DNA from: Levilactobacillus zymae
Lineage (GTDB): Bacteria > Bacillota > Bacilli > Lactobacillales > Lactobacillaceae
Assembly: GCF_032190635.1 (NCBI RefSeq)
Contig: NZ_JAVLAS010000001.1
Coordinates: 2,542,001-2,606,000 of the forward strand
Direction of reading: 5' to 3'
Length of the DNA: 64,000 nt
In this document: piece by piece, positions 13,507-24,600 of the stretch
Layout of the letters: each line of letters begins with the position of its first letter
How positions within the stretch are numbered: position 1 is the stretch's first letter
Notes under the pieces: model-generated
Told to the model about the DNA's origin: nothing
The model's database searches: none
The model's input: only the letters and a program-made list of their open reading frames with translations
Position numbers and translations under genes: made by a program

Positions 13507-14770
13507 ATGCGCAAAATTGTTCAAGGCGCGCTGGTTTGCGGTCTGGGGCTCGGCGCGTGGTTCGGTATGACCGCCACCACCGCCCACGCCGCCAGTTACT
13601 CGGCCACGCGTAGTCAATCCGTCAAGCTGGTCTGGCGCAAGAGTATGGGACAAAAGACCTACACCGCCACCACTGGCGCCCGGTATTCCAAACACCTGGG
13701 AACCAAGTACGGCAATAACTCGGCCACTCAAGCGGTGGTCTGGGTCACCGATGCCCACGAAAAGCTCTACCGGCCGGCCAAGGGCACGTCCGCCATTTAC
13801 TATCACGTCAAAAGCAGTGACGGGAAGCTTCAGGGCTGGATCTGGCGCGGTTACCTCAAGGCCACCACGGACCACACCACGACCACGCAGGGACAGTACT
13901 CCAAGGCCCGGTCGAATTCCGTCAAGCTGGTCTGGCGTAAGAGCATGAAGCAACACGCCTACACCGCCACCACCGGCGCCCGGTACTCCAAGCACCTGGG
14001 GACCAAGTACGGCAACAACGCCGATACGGCCGACGTGACCTGGTTAACCGACGCTCACGAGAAACTCTACCGCAAGGCCAAGGGCAACTCAGCCATCTAT
14101 TACCACGTTACCAGCGAAGATGGCACCTTACAGGGCTGGATCTGGCGCGGTTACTTGAAGGCCGGCAAGGCAGATCAAACCACGACCGACGATTCCACCA
14201 CCCAATCCGCTGCTAACTTTACGGTCCAAAAGACCACCAGCAGCGGCCAGCCAAGACCGGCAATTTACCAAGTTGGTCACCGCCCAAATGGTCAAGGACG
14301 GTTTCAAGGTCAGTCAGGATCTCCAGGGCGCCTACGAGGGCTTAGCCCAGATTGACGACTGGGATGGCGCTTTAACCACCGATGCCTTTGCCGATAATTT
14401 CGATCCTTACGACGAAGTCACCGGCAAGCTCAAAGCCAAGGACATCCACTACCTATATTCCAGCACGGCTGGTCGGGTGGGCTCGAGCGACGATAAGCTC
14501 ACCGCCAACATGGACCCTTGGTTCCCCGCAGGCATTGAAAAGACGTTAGGTACCAAGGTCGATGCCGAGACCGGTGAAACGCAGACCCTGGTTAAGGATC
14601 TCGCGAAGTACTTAGAAAAGACGTTGACGCAGCATAAAATGAAGAATTTCTACTTAAACACCGCTGTGGGTTACCCCGCTAGCATGGGGTACACCACTTA
14701 CAACACCGATACGGATCTCTCCGTAGAGTTCCAACTGTTGTACACCAAGGTCGCCGACGGTAAACACTAA
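13507..14770 (+). pseudogene. Secreted repeat protein with a frameshift
   Basis: AAAGGAGG precedes the ATG. A clear signal peptide (MRKIVQGALVCGLGLGAWF to THAASYS) is followed by two tandem repeats of about 75 residues. Each runs from SVKLVWR through GARYSKHLGTKYGNN and TDAHEKLY to GWIWRGYLK. A Thr-rich linker follows. Near 14240-14262 the coding sense moves to the +1 frame. That frame runs to 14770 as a domain (VKDGFKVSQDLQ to LLYTKVADGKH) homologous to the C-terminus of the gene at 1-879. Restored length would be about 420 residues. The first frame otherwise ends at 14355. It is either a recent frameshift or a sequence error. It may be a surface protein. Confidence 0.75.
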
Positions 14771-16331: not shown

Positions 16332-17651
16332 TTAGTCCATCGGCAGGGTCACCAACAACCGTCCCCAGTGGAGTTTGGTTTCTAGTTGCAGGGTAATGGC
16401 GGACGGTAACCCCTTCAGAACTTCCGAGAAATCGAGTTGGAACCCCTCCCCGACCAGGCGATTGCCGTGAATGATTTGCACGTTAGTCGGCAGGGGGAAG
16501 GTCAACTCCACCCAGGTCAGTTCCACCGATTCCGTGATCTTCAGGTTCACCATGGCGGGCTCTAAGGCCACCACCGCGTGAATCGTGGCCGGTAACGACC
16601 GCTCCAGGACCCGTCCGACTCGCCGACCGACCGCGACCGTCGCGGTCAAGGGTTTCGGAATGTTGACGAACAGGTTGACCCCCAGACGCTGGGCCAGCAG
16701 ATAATCGTGGTAAATGCTGTATTGGACCACGCCCCTGGGCATGTTATGCAGGTCGTCGATGGTCAGATCCGCCGCGTTGCTAGTCTCCCACTTCGAGCGA
16801 ATATCGATGTAGTACTGCCGAAAACCCGCGTAATCCCGTTCATTAAGGTACCCCCCTAGGCCCAACAGGATGTTTTGATAATCGTGGCGGAACTTCCGGA
16901 CCAGGACCGACTGGCGTTGCAGCTCGGCCGTATACTGCTGATGATAGGCCTGATGCTGGGCTTGAATCCGGGCGTGTTCCTGTTGCAGGTGGGTCTGTAA
17001 CAACAGGTAGATGCTGACCGAGAAGCCGACCATCACCACCCCCGTGATACCGACCAGAAAGAAGAGGTAGCCGGTCGAGCGGTGTAGGAGCCGTAAGGTC
17101 GACAGAAACAGGATGAACACGGCCCACATCAGCGTCATGAACAGGAGCAACAGGTACTGTGTCCGCCGGGTAATCACGGCTTCCATGAAGTTTTCCATGG
17201 GCGCCTGGGTGCCTAATAACCCCAACGAAATCATGGCAAACAGGATGGTACTAAAGGTCAGCATGGTCGTCAGCCCCCAGGTCGACACGGTAAACCGATA
17301 CGAGGTCAGTAAGGTGGTCAGGGTGACCCCCACACTATTGACGAAGGCACTGAGCAGGTAGTCCAAGATCGACACCGATAAGAAGGCCGGAATCAGCCGC
17401 TGCTGACGCCGATAAACGAACCAGCCTAACTCCACGGCAAGGATCAACAGGACGGACGCACCGCGCAGCCAGCCCCACTCGACCTGTTTGGCGACCAGGT
17501 TTAAGCCCGTAAACCCGGCCGCTAGTCCCAGGTAAGCCCCCTGAAACCAGCGGGTGCGCAGACTGGGAAACCAGTAAAATTGAAACGAAATGAACCACGC
17601 ACACATCACAAAGTTAGTTAACCAAAAATCACTACCGCTCGGCGTTAACAT
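16332..17651 (-). CDS. AgrC-like kinase homologue with phosphoacceptor His but no ATP boxes (HK1)
   Basis: 439 residues. The ATG at 17649-17651 has GGGGGAGG upstream, so the longer frame is rejected. The N-terminal part has about six helices. A cytoplasmic helix pair carries FRHDYQN with His256, the HPK10-type phosphoacceptor motif. The C-terminal region should be the GHKL ATPase, but it has no LDNAIEA-like N box and no GxGLG G box. It ends in beta-strand-like sequence (KLHWGRLLVTLPMD) shared with HK2. It is the last gene of the operon RR-HK3-HK2-HK1, 16 bases after HK2. It probably receives phosphate from HK3 and passes it to the response regulator. Confidence 0.8.
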   Translation of the reverse strand: MLTPSGSDFWLTNFVMCAWFISFQFYWFPSLRTRWFQGAYLGLAAGFTGLNLVAKQVEWGWLRGASVLLILAVELGWFVYRRQQRLIPAFLSVSILDYLLSAFVNSVGVTLTTLLTSYRFTVSTWGLTTMLTFSTILFAMISLGLLGTQAPMENFMEAVITRRTQYLLLLFMTLMWAVFILFLSTLRLLHRSTGYLFFLVGITGVVMVGFSVSIYLLLQTHLQQEHARIQAQHQAYHQQYTAELQRQSVLVRKFRHDYQNILLGLGGYLNERDYAGFRQYYIDIRSKWETSNAADLTIDDLHNMPRGVVQYSIYHDYLLAQRLGVNLFVNIPKPLTATVAVGRRVGRVLERSLPATIHAVVALEPAMVNLKITESVELTWVELTFPLPTNVQIIHGNRLVGEGFQLDFSEVLKGLPSAITLQLETKLHWGRLLVTLPMD

Positions 17652-17667
17652 CCCGGCGTGCCTCCCC

Positions 17668-18996
17668 CTAGTTTTGTTCGTTCTTCGGTAAGACAATCTC
17701 TAATTGACCCCAGTGTAATTTCACTCGGAGCATCGTACTGGTATCTAGCGTCAAGTGGCGGGTTACCCGACTAAAGTCCAGATTCCCCTGCGCGCTGGTC
17801 AACCGGTGCTGGGTCAGGACGCGCGCGTCATCGCCCACCGGAAAGGTCAGACGAAAGTGCACGTCGTACTGTGTTTCGATCAACTCCAAGGTTACCACGG
17901 CCGGTTGAAGCTGCGCGGCGTAAGGTAACACGATGGGGAATGTCCGGGCCACGATCCGGGCCAACTGCCGCAGGGCTTCCATGGTCAACGTCAACGGTTC
18001 AGGCGTCTTCACGAACATGTCCACACCCAACCGGCGGGCCTCTAAGTATTGATGATAAACCTCGTAGCGTACCCCAATCTTGGGAATATTGGCCAAGTCA
18101 TCGATCGTTAAGTCAGCGGCGTTACTGGTGACCCACCGCGAGCGAATATCCACATACAACTGCTGGAATCCGGCATAGTCGTGATCGGCCAGGTAGCCCC
18201 CCAGGCCCAACAACATGTTTTGATAATCGTGCTGGAACTTCCGAACCAGCGAGATCTGCCGGTGTAGCTCCGCTTCGTACTGGTCGTGAAAGCGCCGATC
18301 CTGTAACTGGGCGTAGGTATGCTCGGACTGGAGGTGGCTTTGGACCAAGATGTAGGTGCTCAGGGTGATGCCCAACATGAACACCCCCGAGATGCCCATC
18401 AAAAAGATCAGGGCTTCAACCGACCAATTCAAGGCCTGCAGGGCGTATTCGAACAGGCTAAAGACCAGCATCATTACCGACATCAGGGCCAGAAATAAGT
18501 ATTCCGCATCGCGGCCCAACAGGGACTGAACGAGATTTTCAATGGGGGCCTGGGTGGATAAAGTGGCCAGCAGAATCAGGGTGAAAAGTACCGAGTCGAA
18601 GGTTAACGTCACCACGCTGCCCGGAAAGCTGGCCATAAAGGACACGTTCGTCAGCAACATGGTGGCCGTCAGACTGACGGTATCAATGAACTCAATCAGC
18701 AGGTAAGCTAGAATCGTTAGGCTGATAAACGCCGGAAAGTACCGGCCGTTGCGCCGCACTAAGACCGCTCCCTCGACGCCCACCAATAGTAAGGCCGGTA
18801 GCGAGCTAACTAACGCGTGGTGGGCCGTTAACCGTAGCCAGGTATCTAGACTCGCATAGGCCAAGGCCAACCCCCCAGCGTACGCGAGGAAATGCCGCGG
18901 TCGTAACTGCGGCAACCAGTAGTATTGAAAATAGATAAACCAAAAGCCCATGATGACGTCGGCGACCCAGAAGCTGGGGACAGTTACGGCTAACAC
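17668..18996 (-). CDS. AgrC-like kinase homologue with phosphoacceptor His but no ATP boxes (HK2)
   Basis: 442 residues from a GTG at 18994-18996 with GGAGG eight bases upstream. About six N-terminal helices are followed by FQHDYQN with His256, identical in position to HK1. The two share most cytoplasmic sequence (DLTIDDLxNxP, RRLGVxxFVxxPxPLT, KLHWGxLxxxLP) and arose by duplication. Neither N box nor G box is present where HK3 has them. Its start lies one base past the HK3 stop, so translation is coupled. Role inferred: sensor and phosphoacceptor partner of HK3. Confidence 0.8.
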   Translation of the reverse strand: MLAVTVPSFWVADVIMGFWFIYFQYYWLPQLRPRHFLAYAGGLALAYASLDTWLRLTAHHALVSSLPALLLVGVEGAVLVRRNGRYFPAFISLTILAYLLIEFIDTVSLTATMLLTNVSFMASFPGSVVTLTFDSVLFTLILLATLSTQAPIENLVQSLLGRDAEYLFLALMSVMMLVFSLFEYALQALNWSVEALIFLMGISGVFMLGITLSTYILVQSHLQSEHTYAQLQDRRFHDQYEAELHRQISLVRKFQHDYQNMLLGLGGYLADHDYAGFQQLYVDIRSRWVTSNAADLTIDDLANIPKIGVRYEVYHQYLEARRLGVDMFVKTPEPLTLTMEALRQLARIVARTFPIVLPYAAQLQPAVVTLELIETQYDVHFRLTFPVGDDARVLTQHRLTSAQGNLDFSRVTRHLTLDTSTMLRVKLHWGQLEIVLPKNEQN

Positions 18997-18997
18997 A

Positions 18998-20332
18998 CTA
19001 CTCGCCTCCCGTCTTGGTTAGAATGATCGTAAAGTAGAGATGCTGCCGCTTAATCATAATCTGGAGGGAGGCGTTGGCCGTCTGGTCGATGATCTCCTGC
19101 ACCGTACTCAACCCCAGACCGTGGCCGCCCCCCTTGGTGGTGTAACCGGCCCGCATAAATTGCGTAATGGCCGGGGGATGCTCCGCCGACACCGGGTTGG
19201 CCACCGCCAGTTCTACGGCGTCCGGATAATCCAGAATCGCACAGTAAATCTCGGGCAGTTCCCCCACCCGGGGCGCTTCGATGGCGTTATCCAGGAGAAT
19301 ACCCAGAATGCGCAACAATTGGACGTTATTCATGGGAATCATTTGAATCGGGTCCGGGACCTCTAAGCGAAAATGCCATTGGCGATTCTGGGCCGCCAGA
19401 ATCTTCTGGAACAACAGGTTCTTGAGGGGCGGGTCATTCAACCGCTGCAACCCATCGATTTCTAGCCCCGCCAGTTGGTTAGTGGTCTGCCACCGCGTGT
19501 TGAGCGTTTGGTAATAACGCTCTAGACCGTCATAGTCTTCCGCGTCCAGATAATCCCCCAGCCGCAGCATCTGTTTCTGGTAGGTCTGCTTAAAGTCCCG
19601 GATGTTTTGCACCTGATCCGAGATGCGTCGGTCGTAGCGACTCTGCAACATCGCCGTCTGGTAATCGGCCTTGACCCGCTGCCGAATCATGAAGCTCCGC
19701 AAGAAGACGAAGAGACTCACCACGATCAGGCCAATCATCAGGACCTCGATCCCCAGTGCAAACGTCAGCATCCCCTGGCTCAGGTTCATCTGGTGAATAA
19801 TACTTGACGACAACCCGACCAACGACGCTAGACTTAACAGGAGTGCCAGAACGGTCCACTGCTCCTTATGACTCAACGCCAATTGATCCAGGTTGCCGGG
19901 TTGAATGTGCATCTCGGCGACCCCTAGTGAGATCATCGAGTAGACCATCAGCTGCACCGTCAGCCGACTCGCCACCCCCATCACGCTTTGGGCCACGCCA
20001 TCCCCCCACAGTTGTCGCATGAGTTCCCAGGAGAAGTCGTTGACCAACACCACAATCAAAAAGATGATAATCGTGGCGTTCATAAAAATCAGGGCGAGGT
20101 TACGGCGGTGGCGCACCAAATACGTCAGTGCCGCTAACGGGGGGATGATTAGGCTCCACCCCTCACCGATGACTGCCGGGATTAACGCCCAGAGGACCCA
20201 TTTCAGGGGCAACGACCAGTTTTGGGGCCGAATCTCCCCAATCCAGATGGTCCAGAACCACTGCATGGTCATCGCCAGCACGAAGTTGACCCAGAAATTT
20301 TGATCAAATAAATGGAAAGCCACGTCTATCAC
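18998..20332 (-). CDS. AgrC-like kinase with ATPase domain but without phosphoacceptor His (HK3)
   Basis: 444 residues from a GTG at 20330-20332. A GTG at 20321-20323 with AGGTG upstream is an alternative. About six N-terminal helices. At the place of the phosphoacceptor it reads DFKQTYQKQM. Gln249 replaces His, Thr replaces Asp and Lys replaces Asn of HDYxN. The ATP domain is complete, with LLDNAIEA (N box) and TTKGGGHGLGLSTV (G box). It therefore should bind ATP but cannot autophosphorylate at the usual site. It starts three bases after the response regulator stop. Confidence 0.85.
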   Translation of the reverse strand: MIDVAFHLFDQNFWVNFVLAMTMQWFWTIWIGEIRPQNWSLPLKWVLWALIPAVIGEGWSLIIPPLAALTYLVRHRRNLALIFMNATIIIFLIVVLVNDFSWELMRQLWGDGVAQSVMGVASRLTVQLMVYSMISLGVAEMHIQPGNLDQLALSHKEQWTVLALLLSLASLVGLSSSIIHQMNLSQGMLTFALGIEVLMIGLIVVSLFVFLRSFMIRQRVKADYQTAMLQSRYDRRISDQVQNIRDFKQTYQKQMLRLGDYLDAEDYDGLERYYQTLNTRWQTTNQLAGLEIDGLQRLNDPPLKNLLFQKILAAQNRQWHFRLEVPDPIQMIPMNNVQLLRILGILLDNAIEAPRVGELPEIYCAILDYPDAVELAVANPVSAEHPPAITQFMRAGYTTKGGGHGLGLSTVQEIIDQTANASLQIMIKRQHLYFTIILTKTGGE

Positions 20333-20335
20333 CTA

Positions 20336-21097
20336 TCATTCGTTGAGATGCTTCTGAACTAGGGTCTTGACTTCGTGAAAGCGGCGGGTGGCAACGTCGG
20401 TCTGATCGCCATTGGGAAAGATCAGCCGGCGGTTCTCCGAATCGATACCGCTCACGTTGTCGAGGTTCACCAGAAAACTCTTATCCGTGCGATACAGGTC
20501 CGGGTACTGATCCGCAATGTCTTTTAAGAAACCCGGAAACTCCACCAACTGGTTGGCGGCGTGCACCGAAACCTTATGAGGGGTGTCCGCGGTCGAGACA
20601 AAGTAAACGTCCCCCATGGGCAAACTAAAGGTGCGCCCCCCAATGGTGTACTGGAACAAGTTTTCCGTATTTTCGAGGTAGTTGGTATACCGTTGAAAGC
20701 CGTAATCCACGTTTTCGCGTAGTTTTTGATCGATCTGTTCTCGACCCAAATCTTTAACCACGAAGTCCATCGGTTCCACCTTACGTTCAAACGTCAATAG
20801 CGCCATCTCCGAGTGGGTGGTGACGAACACAATCTCCGCAAACCCCAGCTGTTGACGAATCGCAATCGCCGTTTCCAGACCGTTCATGTCCTCAGCCGGA
20901 AATTCGATATCTAAAAATAGCAGAGCATACTTTGGTGCATCCGTCTCCAGTGCCGCCAACAATTCCTTAGGACTGACCGTCGCGAGTTTAATCTGCATGT
21001 TGTAATCGTTAATCATAATGTAGCGCTGAACAACTTCCTGATAGTGAGCCAGCTGTTCAGGGTTATCCTCACAGAAATAGACCGATAACACCGCCAT
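20336..21097 (-). CDS. LytTR-family response regulator (AgrA/ComE type)
   Basis: 253 residues. The receiver domain has the acidic pair ED (residues 10-11), phosphoacceptor Asp63 in LLFLDIEF, and Thr in VFVTTHS. After a linker with ENLFQYTIGG, a LytTR DNA-binding domain runs from about residue 148 (YFVSTADTPHKVSVHA, YRTDKSFLVNLDNVSGID) to the C-terminus. It is first in the operon with three AgrC-like kinases. By family it activates promoters carrying direct repeats in response to a peptide signal. No agrB or agrD-like gene and no double-glycine peptide was found nearby. Confidence 0.9.
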   Translation of the reverse strand: MAVLSVYFCEDNPEQLAHYQEVVQRYIMINDYNMQIKLATVSPKELLAALETDAPKYALLFLDIEFPAEDMNGLETAIAIRQQLGFAEIVFVTTHSEMALLTFERKVEPMDFVVKDLGREQIDQKLRENVDYGFQRYTNYLENTENLFQYTIGGRTFSLPMGDVYFVSTADTPHKVSVHAANQLVEFPGFLKDIADQYPDLYRTDKSFLVNLDNVSGIDSENRRLIFPNGDQTDVATRRFHEVKTLVQKHLNE

Positions 21098-21121
21098 CGT
21101 CTCCCTTCACTAATTACCTTT

Positions 21122-21150
21122 AATGTAACGTGATTTAGGATTCGTTGCAA
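21122..21150 (-). promoter_or_regulatory. Promoter of the regulator-kinase operon
   Basis: On the minus strand TTGCAA (21145-21150), 17 bases, TACATT (21122-21127). The leader is about 20 bases. Confidence 0.65.
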
Positions 21151-21293
21151 TCCTTTTGGTGGGTAAAATGCACTGATACTTTACATTATCGTGACCAGCG
21201 ACCAGCGCTGCTCACGCCAAATTCATCGCTTAATCCCGTGACCATGTGGTAACGCCACCATGGGCGACGACCGTGATCAAGCCCCTTAATGAC

Positions 21294-21324
21294 AAAAAAA
21301 GTACCGCCCCCAACGGACGATACT
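21294..21324 (-). terminator. Minus-strand terminator without an assigned gene
   Basis: AGTATCGTCC pairs with GGGCGGTACT, with wobble pairs only possible on the minus strand. Seven T follow. It ends a transcript coming from 21325-21640. Confidence 0.7.
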
Positions 21325-21638
21325 CTAAGCAGATTATCCCATTAATTAGTAGGTAAAATTTAGCACTCCCCCAAGTTCTTAATTTTAATCACTGACTACA
21401 TTTGGTAATAATCCGTTATTTAGTGAATCTTACTCCTTAGCACATTGTGACGTTCCAAAAAGTCCCTCAACTAGGTGTCTATGAAGCGGGGTGCATGATC
21501 CCCACTTGGTTAGGGCCCACGTCCTGAAGTGGTTGGTCCCTTCCAACTGCATTAAGAATATCATGGAATGAACCATTCAGACGATAAGAGGCAAAAACGT
21601 CGTTAAATGCACGTTAAAGTGCCTAATTTCAGAGCAAT
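21325..21638. other. Intergenic region, possibly an RNA on the minus strand
   Basis: There is no convincing ORF. On the minus strand AAGTGGGG and CCCCGCTT (21484-21508) form a stem, and GTTGG/CCAAC another near 21535-21550. CGTTAAA occurs twice, 11 bp apart, near 21601 and 21612. A terminator follows at 21294. It could be a long 3' UTR of the gene at 21639 or a separate RNA. Confidence 0.35.
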
Positions 21639-22046
21639 TTAATTGTGTCTTATTAGATAGGACACAAAACCAACTAAAACCAAGGGGCTCCCCAGTGCTA
21701 AAAAAATATCGATCAATACTAGCCAGTAAACCTTCAATGGTGCCCGGGGCGCGGCCTGGACCCGGCGAACTGGCTGATGACGTTCATAGACGGAGCTCGT
21801 CTGTTCGGCAGCTCGGTGTCGTTTGCGGTGGAAAGTTGGGGCGGTCACGGCGCGGTGATCTTCCAACAAAATCCACTTGGCAAAGGGAAAGCCTAACCAA
21901 CAGATGATCAAGTAGACATCCCCCCAGGTTACCTGGGGCATCACCCGGAACTGGGCCGCATTAAAGTGCCCTAGCAACCCCAGAACGAGGCCCATCACGA
22001 GACCAATGCTTGCCTGACGAAGCCAATATCGGCCAGTTAACTTCAC
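21639..22046 (-). CDS. Membrane protein, hypothetical
   Basis: 135 residues from a GTG at 22044-22046 with AGGAAGGAAA upstream. Two N-terminal helices (QASIGLVMGLVLGLLGHF, VYLIICWLGFPFAKWILL) are followed by a basic loop (HRKRHRAAEQ) and a C-terminal helix. No family recognised. It is divergent from the greA-like gene. Confidence 0.6.
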   Translation of the reverse strand: MKLTGRYWLRQASIGLVMGLVLGLLGHFNAAQFRVMPQVTWGDVYLIICWLGFPFAKWILLEDHRAVTAPTFHRKRHRAAEQTSSVYERHQPVRRVQAAPRAPLKVYWLVLIDIFLALGSPLVLVGFVSYLIRHN

Positions 22047-22085
22047 AACGGTTTCCTTCCTTCTACAAACTGCGTTAAACTGTGC

Positions 22086-22113
22086 TTAGACGTCACCGGC
22101 GTCACATTATTCT
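22086..22113 (+). promoter_or_regulatory. Promoter of the greA-like gene
   Basis: TTAGAC (22086-22091), 16 bases, TATTCT (22108-22113). Confidence 0.5.
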
Positions 22114-23449: not shown

Positions 23450-24013
23450 TTAACCCGGGTAGTCTTCTTCTGCGCCGGTCGGGTTAAAGGCTTTGGCTTG
23501 GGCCTTGGTCTTGTAATAGTGGAATAAGTGACATTCCCCATTCCCATAGTTCCACATACTATTAATAATAAGTGACTTCACCTTTTTACCTTGGTAGTGT
23601 CGCGTCACCACTTTGTAGCCTTCAGTCCCCATCGAATGGAACTTGGCCCCTTTGCGATAAGTTTCCCGGTCCGCGTTCATCAACCAGCCTTGGCTCATGA
23701 ACAACACTTCATCGTAGCGGTTGCTCTTATTCGACTTCGGCGTCTTATTCAACGCAATCGACTTGACCAGTCCCTCTCCGGTTTGCCACTTTTTGTTGAC
23801 GTAATTCCGGACGGTCGTTTTCTTCGCCGCAACGGTGAACCGGTTGTAGTGGCCCTTTTGGTAATAGTACCAGGTGCCCCGATACTTGGCCGGATACTGG
23901 GCTAGACTCATCTTCGTGCTGGCTTGCGCCGTGACCTCTGGGGTGGCCACGGTCATCACAGCCGCCAAGCTAAGTGCGGCTAAGACGGCACCGAAAATTT
24001 TGGTTAGTTTCAT
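23450..24013 (-). CDS. Secreted hypothetical protein, paralogue of 24049
   Basis: 187 residues from MKLTKIFGAVLAALS. GAGGAGG precedes the ATG at 24011-24013. A signal peptide ends near VTAQA. The mature part begins with YPAKYRGTWYYYQKGHYNRF and ends with KTKAQAKAFNPTGA. Both motifs recur in the next gene (LRGTWYHYQ and KTQAQ-like KTKAQ/FNPVGA). A beta-rich lipocalin-like fold is possible but not shown. Function unknown. Confidence 0.75.
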   Translation of the reverse strand: MKLTKIFGAVLAALSLAAVMTVATPEVTAQASTKMSLAQYPAKYRGTWYYYQKGHYNRFTVAAKKTTVRNYVNKKWQTGEGLVKSIALNKTPKSNKSNRYDEVLFMSQGWLMNADRETYRKGAKFHSMGTEGYKVVTRHYQGKKVKSLIINSMWNYGNGECHLFHYYKTKAQAKAFNPTGAEEDYPG

Positions 24014-24048
24014 GGAAAGATTCCTCCTCAATAGTTGATCATCCAAGT

Positions 24049-24600
24049 TTACTTATGTAGTGCCCCAACGGGATTAAAGAACTTGGCCTGGGCCTTAGTC
24101 TGGTAGAAGTGGTCCGTAAACCCATAGTTTGTTTTGTTGGTTAAGACCTTAACCGACTTACCTTGATAGGTCTGGTGGCTCACCTTGTAGTTACCATGAC
24201 CGACGGAATCAAAGCCAAAGTTCCAGTTATCAATCTCGGTGTACCCGTTCTTACGAGTCGCGGCGTACATCCACTTAGCCGTCTTTTTGGTAATGTAGTC
24301 GCCGTTTGTGATCTTATTGACATCCTTAGCGACGTGCAACGTGTAGGTCTTCTTAGCGTGCTTACGCCCATATGCATCATAAGCGTTGCGGACGGTCATC
24401 TTCTTGGCCCCTAAATTCAGGGATTCGTAAAAGTAGCCGTTAGCTTCTTGGTAATGGTACCAAGTGCCGCGTAAGCTCTGCGGGACTGCCGCTAAACTGC
24501 TCTTAGCCTTAGCCTGGGCAACGTCCGGCGTGGTCACCGCCAGCGAGACCCCTAGCGTTGTGGCCGCAACCAATGCGCCCGCAATCGTGGTTAATTTCAT
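24049..24600 (-). CDS. Secreted hypothetical protein, paralogue of 23450
   Basis: 183 residues with AAGGAGG before the ATG. The signal peptide ends near AQAKA. Shared features with its neighbour are SLRGTWYHYQ, KKMTVRNAYD and the C-terminal QTKAQAKFFNPVGA. The gap between the two genes is 35 bases, so they are probably cotranscribed. TATAAT on the minus strand at 24668-24673 is a candidate -10 box. Function unknown. Confidence 0.75.
   Translation of the reverse strand: MKLTTIAGALVAATTLGVSLAVTTPDVAQAKAKSSLAAVPQSLRGTWYHYQEANGYFYESLNLGAKKMTVRNAYDAYGRKHAKKTYTLHVAKDVNKITNGDYITKKTAKWMYAATRKNGYTEIDNWNFGFDSVGHGNYKVSHQTYQGKSVKVLTNKTNYGFTDHFYQTKAQAKFFNPVGALHK

Follow-up and report, generated by a model that had tools for sequence, protein, structure and literature searches.

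The genome of Levilactobacillus zymae encodes a real, genus-wide, and probably functional split histidine kinase (HK) of the AgrC type, in which the phospho-acceptor His and the ATPase reside on separate proteins of the same operon. The operon lies in a stretch of 64,000 nucleotides (hereafter, the window; positions 2,542,001 to 2,606,000 of contig NZ_JAVLAS010000001.1 in the assembly GCF_032190635.1, 2.89 Mb in 8 contigs), where four open genes are closely packed on the minus strand between positions 16332 and 21097. The first of these (20336..21097) codes for an AgrA/ComE-like response regulator (RR) that combines the Pfam domains Response_reg and LytTR, carries the receiver Asp residue in the sequence ALLFLDIEFP, and matches the AgrA model NF046049 with an E value of 8e-38, under the curated cut-off of that model. 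It is followed by HK3 (18998..20332), an AgrC-type kinase with the GHKL ATPase domain only, and by two predicted His-donor pseudokinases, HK2 (17668..18996) and HK1 (16332..17696). The first start codon of HK1 is TTG, and its likely start is the ATG at 17651, which yields a protein of 439 amino acid residues, the same length as in the L038 copy.

In HK3, the acceptor site reads FKQTYQK, with Gln249 (codon 19586..19588) in the acceptor position, and both ATPase motifs, the N box LLDNAIEA (19274..19297) and the G box GHGLGL (19109..19126), are present. The corresponding sites of HK2 and HK1 read FQHDYQN (His256, codon 18229..18231) and FRHDYQN (His codon 16884..16886), and both proteins lack the N box and the G box, so that none of the three combines the H, N, and G boxes. 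All these assignments come from the sequences and their alignments, and the Pfam searches agree with them: the HATPase_c_5 (3.8e-10) and HATPase_c families scored above the cut-off in HK3, matching neither HK1 nor HK2, and at E values of up to 1 the HATPase families matched 22 of 22 aligned HK3 orthologs and none of the 23 HK2/HK1 sequences. The relation of all three proteins to the AgrC/HPK10 sensor kinases is evident from their matches to the NCBIfam AgrC model NF046015 (1.3e-43 for HK3, 3.5e-16 for HK1, and 1.5e-9 for HK2, all under its curated cut-off of 500 bits). The solved AgrC kinase module 6e52 aligns with the HK3 profile over the dimerization (DHp) and catalytic (CA) domains with an E value of 3.2e-35, placing the HDY of AgrC opposite the QTY of HK3, and aligns more weakly with the HK2 profile; HK2 and HK3 are homologous over their full lengths (hhalign probability of 99.6). 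The complementary losses, described in an initial annotation made from the letters alone, are therefore confirmed by the motifs, Pfam searches, the 6e52 alignment, and the counts across the genus given below. The six membrane helices assigned to each kinase by that annotation are plausible as a general feature, but their number is not fixed: a simple hydropathy scan found 6 hydrophobic segments in HK1, 8 in HK2, and 5 in HK3.

The same pattern holds among the relatives of these proteins. Pooling the sequences from the analyzed loci with those from protein databases and dropping identical copies left 65 unique sequences of HK3 and 80 of HK2/HK1. The HDYQN motif is present in all 80 HK2/HK1 sequences, none of which has the N-box Asn, and the G box is missing from its column in all 79 sequences with letters there (a GxGL string is found elsewhere past residue 300 in two of them). 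The possibility that HK1 and HK2 of related genomes would have kept their N and G boxes, foreseen in the initial annotation as an argument against the split, is accordingly not borne out. In HK3, the acceptor position is occupied by Gln in 45 sequences, Arg in 6, and His in 14, the His-Asp pair is never found at this site (0 of 65), and the LLDNA and YxTKG motifs are kept in 64 of 64 sequences that cover them, the remaining one being a fragment. The acceptor His and the ATPase are thus carried by separate incomplete proteins, as in other split HKs, with the 14 His-bearing HK3 sequences as the exception. For comparison, an alignment of 85 more distant HK3 homologs shows the His-Asp pair in 83 and the N-box Asn in all 85. 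The two outliers, P0141 and P0162, are distant HPK10 proteins that retain the N-box Asn and lack the acceptor His; P0162 was not found in 301 Lactobacillaceae genomes in a search at E values of up to 1e-25.

The genus sample consisted of 25 Levilactobacillus genomes within a set of 397 genomes of the family. All 25 encode HK3 orthologs with 61 to 93% identity, in each case adjoined by an HK2-type gene, with both reading frames open. The RR gene is found upstream in 24 of them; the remaining region, L040, starts within the operon. The HK1 gene is confined to 3 of the 25 genomes and, among named loci, to 4 of 30 (L. zymae, L. acidifarinae, L. suantsaii, and L. namurensis); therefore, HK1 is a subclade-specific extra HK2-like copy, and the core of the system is the HK3-HK2 pair with its RR. 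This revises the three-part system of the initial annotation: the conservation that it proposed to check extends to HK3, HK2, and the residue losses and does not extend to HK1. Scanning of contigs with the HK3 alignment produced these 30 named loci, 28 of them titled Levilactobacillus and 2 Lactobacillus sp., and a search for HK2-type proteins in a large protein database, in which 8000 candidates were scored, gave 47 matches that, where named, come from Levilactobacillus only. Ten regions from other Lactobacillaceae (L177-L186), some with a single kinase, contain no split pair; 13 of their 15 kinase sequences have all three boxes, the other two being the second open reading frame (ORF) of L177, without letters at the G box, and an L181 ORF that is a fragment. 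In L. namurensis DSM 19117, the HK2 frame is seemingly broken (L072:7321-7530) and in L039 it is open; an assembly error is possible. A description of this Levilactobacillus operon was not found in the open-licence literature, a collection that does not cover most subscription papers.

The explanation that we favor, and consider quite probable as a whole, is an obligate asymmetric AgrC/HPK10 kinase formed by HK3 with HK2 or HK1, with phosphorylation in trans, an RR and an RNA as its outputs, and an independent origin by duplication. The sole functional domain for ATP binding would be that of HK3, and the sole His-Asp phospho-acceptor would come from HK2 or from its subclade copy HK1. The two proteins would pair in the membrane via their DHp helices, HK3 would phosphorylate the His residue of HK2 or HK1 in trans, and the phosphate would be passed to the LytTR regulator, which would then probably activate the conserved RNA encoded beside it, in the manner suggested for FasA and fasX. 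In the ancestor of Levilactobacillus, a single ordinary kinase would have been duplicated and the copies would have undergone complementary losses, separately from the streptococcal pairs discussed below. We infer the pairing, phosphoryl transfer, RR target, ligand, and route of origin from the observed sequences, motifs, conservation, synteny, and trees. Phosphorylation of one protein by another within a tightly coupled operon, proposed in the initial annotation, remains the best reading, given that the HK3-HK2 pair is kept in all 25 genomes. That the operon encodes an independently evolved, obligate heterodimeric AgrC-type receptor driving the adjacent RNA, with two alternative receptors sharing one ATPase in a single subclade, is a more tentative proposal, which we would not quite expect to hold in full.

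The closest known system is FasBCA-FasX of group A Streptococcus. It comprises two AgrC/ComD-type kinases with complementary roles, the His on the proposed pseudokinase FasC and the ATPase on FasB, and a LytTR-type (ComE-like) regulator proposed to activate the adjacent small RNA fasX (PMC12675982). In the two-hybrid assays published in October 2025 by Baral and others, FasB and FasC heterodimerized and homodimers were not detected; H246 of FasC was required and its kinase domain was dispensable, FasA was phosphorylated at D60, and H284 of FasB was left open as a site (PMC12675982). The L. zymae operon has the same components, with a His-less ATPase kinase, a His-bearing pseudokinase, and a LytTR regulator in a single operon, so that the statement in the initial annotation that no AgrC-family case had been described no longer holds. 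There are also differences: the Fas kinase genes are located upstream of the regulator gene and those of Levilactobacillus downstream, a subclade of Levilactobacillus has a second His-donor, and the Levilactobacillus RNA is a different sequence and so far only a candidate. In two of the regions analyzed here, L157 and L158, the acceptor of the FasC-like protein is located at residue 246, the Asp of the regulator at residue 60, and the FasB-like protein contains His241 and His284; these are the residue numbers published for FasBCA (H246, D60, H241, and H284; PMC12675982). The matching numbers suggest that L157 and L158 represent the fas locus. The canonical acceptor position of their FasB-like proteins, 254, is occupied by Asn in L157 and Ser in L158, so judging from the alignment these proteins have lost the canonical His, as did HK3. 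FasB is accordingly predicted to lack the canonical acceptor site, a point that does not appear in the passages of the Fas paper considered here.

Similar arrangements were seen in a set of 20 regions with neighboring matches from 118 genomes of a single genus, apparently Streptococcus, supplemented with L122; these regions were picked by adjacency of the matches, and the shares given here are not genus frequencies. In 16 of the 21 loci (L122, L157-L167, L169, L170, L172, and L173), a His-less ATPase is encoded beside a His-bearing protein that lacks the N box, the G box, or both. The His-donors of L157, L158, and L161-L163 keep the N-box Asn and have lost the G box alone, the one in L163 being a broken gene. 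In L174 and L175, a 296-residue His-bearing AgrC-type protein without the CA domain (L174:4492-5382 and L175:4596-5486) is encoded near a His-less ATPase; in L168 and L171, a His-less ATPase is found near an apparently complete kinase; and L176 encodes two complete kinases. Each of the loci L161, L162, and L163 contains two split pairs of kinases arranged back to back. Ordinary tandem duplication, considered as a general explanation for such loci, fits the controls L123 and L124, in which both kinases have all the boxes, and does not fit the L. zymae operon. Another candidate precedent, the four-component BlpS system of S. gallolyticus, was ruled out, as it has a single kinase.

The Levilactobacillus and streptococcal split kinases likely originated independently, i.e., represent a convergent design. 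In a quick tree that covers 103 kinases and was built with the motif columns removed, HK3 and HK2/HK1 group together beside the complete RR-linked kinases of L125 and L126 (a starred node with support of 98) and away from the streptococcal pairs. In approximately unbiased (AU) tests on the quick tree, topologies with HK3 forced together with the streptococcal ATPase-only sequences (p-AU of 1.45e-6) or HK2/HK1 together with the streptococcal His-bearing ones (p-AU of 7.4e-4) were rejected, so the AU tests, on a tree that contains long branches, speak against common descent of the split subunits. Independence is graded as no more than likely because long branches meet in the tree. This kind of kinase has been known since Fas; so far as the searches extended, the novelty lies in the lineage, in its likely independent origin, and in the additional His-donor and candidate RNA.

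The region between the RR gene and the preceding gene, the low end of which is at position 21639, contains the candidate effector RNA (21294..21548, minus strand), ending in a rho-independent terminator at about 21294-21323. An extended -10-like element of its predicted promoter, CATGATATTCT, is located at 21555..21565, and the direct repeats TTAACGTG-N8-GACGTTTTTGC, the proposed LytTR-type operator, at 21591..21617, both on the same strand. Intergenic regions of L. zymae and 20 relatives were compared (L040, L043, L051, and L053 fall outside this set). The repeats (ACGT or TCGT, then GACGTTT) are present in 21 of 21 regions, exactly 26 bp away from a CATGNTA -10-like box in every one of them. 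The RNA element itself, delimited by its 5' motif in all regions except for the divergent L039, is 255 to 343 bases long, with a T-run at its end. Downstream of its terminator lies the predicted promoter of the kinase operon, TTGCAA-17-TACATT (21122..21150, minus strand), which has the form TTGCAA, TTGCAC, or TTGAAA, 17 bp, and TACATT or TATATT in 20 of 21 loci; L050 has only TTGCA with 18 bp. In many relatives, this promoter is overlapped by what looks like a catabolite-responsive element (cre) box.

In an alignment of 19 copies of the RNA, which omitted L058 as a near-copy of L059, RNAalifold proposed 38 base pairs, of which 6 show two-sided changes, including three that belong to the terminator; this amounts to modest structural support for the candidate RNA. 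Its CTTGGGGGAGTGCTAA stretch is invariant in all 19 copies. No Rfam family matched the window at the gathering threshold, and none matched positions 21000-22100 at E values of up to 1. BLAST searches with the RNA element found it in 12 of 301 genomes of the family, all from Levilactobacillus, and missed it in 3 of 15 genomes of the same genus; these three make up the HK1 subclade and include that of the window, whose copy is divergent. In the genome of L. zymae, the operator pattern is matched once exactly and twice with three mismatches. The position of the repeats and the RNA, together with the analogy to Fas, suggests that the RR acts on them.

Several observations weigh against the favored explanation. 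An acceptor-site His, found in the 14 HK3 sequences, might allow self-phosphorylation there. Such HK3 proteins occur in 3 of the 25 genus genomes and in 3 of the 30 named loci (L. hammesii, L. tujiorum, and Lactobacillus sp. HBUAS51381), so one finding that the initial annotation had named as contrary evidence was obtained in part. Here the His occurs as FTHNYQQ or FKHTYQK, i.e., followed by Asn or Thr and never by Asp, and the HK2 partners in the three genus genomes still miss their N and G boxes. In a quick tree that combined 60 HK3 sequences with two outgroups, leaving out fragments under 430 residues, the distribution of His requires 3 changes. This suggests that the His was regained rather than retained, because the His-bearing sequences are nested within the Gln or Arg groups. 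The sisterhood of HK3 and HK2 has support of 85, is not starred, and comes with a long-branch warning. In genome G201, the RR gene is interrupted (L043:10617-12750, by a 391-residue ORF), yet both kinases persist, HK3 with the FTHNYQQ motif. Finally, the remnant of the CA domain in HK2 shows a ratio of nonsynonymous to synonymous substitution rates (dN/dS) of 0.025 to 0.075 in three computable pairs and therefore must be doing something, although the proposed mechanism offers no explanation for such purifying selection.

A decaying set of duplicated kinases on its way to extinction would account for complementary losses, and the interrupted RR of G201, the apparently broken HK2 frame of L. namurensis DSM 19117, and, in genome G234, an opposite-strand ORF of 429 residues between the RR and HK3 genes (L053:7877-9166, perhaps a transposase) could be taken as its signs. 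This is extremely improbable, though, with both kinase frames open in 25 of 25 genomes, near-invariant motifs, and dN/dS far under 1 in four species pairs. Whole-gene values for the RR, HK3, HK2, and HK1 were 0.019 to 0.080 between L. zymae and L038 and 0.009 to 0.080 across the four pairs, which points to purifying selection; these are rough values, as dS exceeded 1 in 12 of 13 whole-gene estimates, including the comparison with L038, and three region estimates were lost to saturation. In keeping with the favored explanation, the mean pairwise identity of HK2 is highest in the DHp domain (0.80, against 0.61 in the membrane part and 0.55 in the CA remnant), and that of HK3 is even throughout (0.70 in the membrane part, 0.73 in DHp, and 0.69 in CA).

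HK3 could also act without a His partner, as a non-canonical kinase or phosphatase of the RR or through another residue, leaving HK2 and HK1 as decoy or scaffold receptors. Its ATPase is complete, and 52 of the 60 HK3 sequences have a His somewhere in residues 216-287, mostly near the ends of this segment (the count includes 12 acceptor-site ones). However, the HK3 of the window has no His in this segment, a decoy would hardly need the HDYQN motif that all 80 HK2/HK1 sequences retain, and the His of the Fas pseudokinase was required (PMC12675982), which makes this option very improbable. Phosphorylation of HK2 and HK1 by another cellular kinase, with HK3 only modulating these proteins, would draw on the four further PF14501 matches above the cut-off in the L. 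zymae genome. We regard it as even less probable, considering the genus-wide coupling of HK3 with HK2, the conservation of the HK3 ATPase, and a search of the same genome with HK3 that returned only HK3, HK1, and HK2 at E values of up to 0.001.

The obligate HK3-HK2 kinase can be compared with several other systems. Staphylococcal AgrC, the module of which aligns with HK3, likewise works with a LytTR regulator encoded beside an RNA (RNAIII). AgrC, however, is complete as a single kinase and works as a dimer (PMC6755735). No AgrB- or AgrD-like gene was found at the L. zymae locus, and a scan of ten window proteins gave no match to an AgrB family. Mixed AgrC dimers of complementary mutants were reportedly obtained by Cisar in 2009. 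The peptide sensor role assigned in the initial annotation did not gain support either: the small ORFs from the flanks downstream of HK2/HK1 in 17 relatives and from 20 intergenic regions, to which the sequences of L. zymae were added, included no convincing conserved peptide gene. The largest cluster of small ORFs (9 sources) was set aside on its appearance, which was that of repetitive DNA translated in more than one frame, and the others among the six largest come from 3 or 2 sources each (the ORFs clustered had a ribosome-site-like motif).

In the bipartite CheA3/CheA4 kinase of Rhodobacter, one protein phosphorylates the His domain of the other, from which the phosphate goes to the regulator, but these are chemotaxis kinases outside the AgrC family that were split by loss of whole domains (PMC3591291). 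Hik36 and Hik43 of Synechocystis form a split HK with a regulator, as judged by two-hybrid assays, but are of the CheA type and are encoded at distant loci (PMC7656254). The ChrS pseudokinase of Corynebacterium glutamicum lost its CA domain and acts through a paralogous kinase, but it evolved in the laboratory, its own His is not relevant, and two-hybrid assays of the truncated form against the paralog showed no significant signal (PMC9491836). With the same division of labor, seemingly of independent origin, kept across a food-associated genus, the Fas arrangement would seem to be more than an oddity of a single pathogen. If this is correct, duplication with complementary loss would be a recurrent route from HPK10 kinases to heterodimers, and the Levilactobacillus pair would offer a convenient model of how a homodimeric receptor kinase turns into an obligate heterodimer, along an evolutionary path made testable by the phylogeny and by the two motif contexts in which His has reappeared in HK3.

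Elsewhere in the window, two neighboring ORFs at 23450-24600 (minus strand) resemble secreted proteins and share an RGTWYxYQ stretch, without a Pfam family, and two ORFs at 13507-14770 (plus strand) that overlap in different frames may represent a single frame-broken, repeat-bearing secreted protein.

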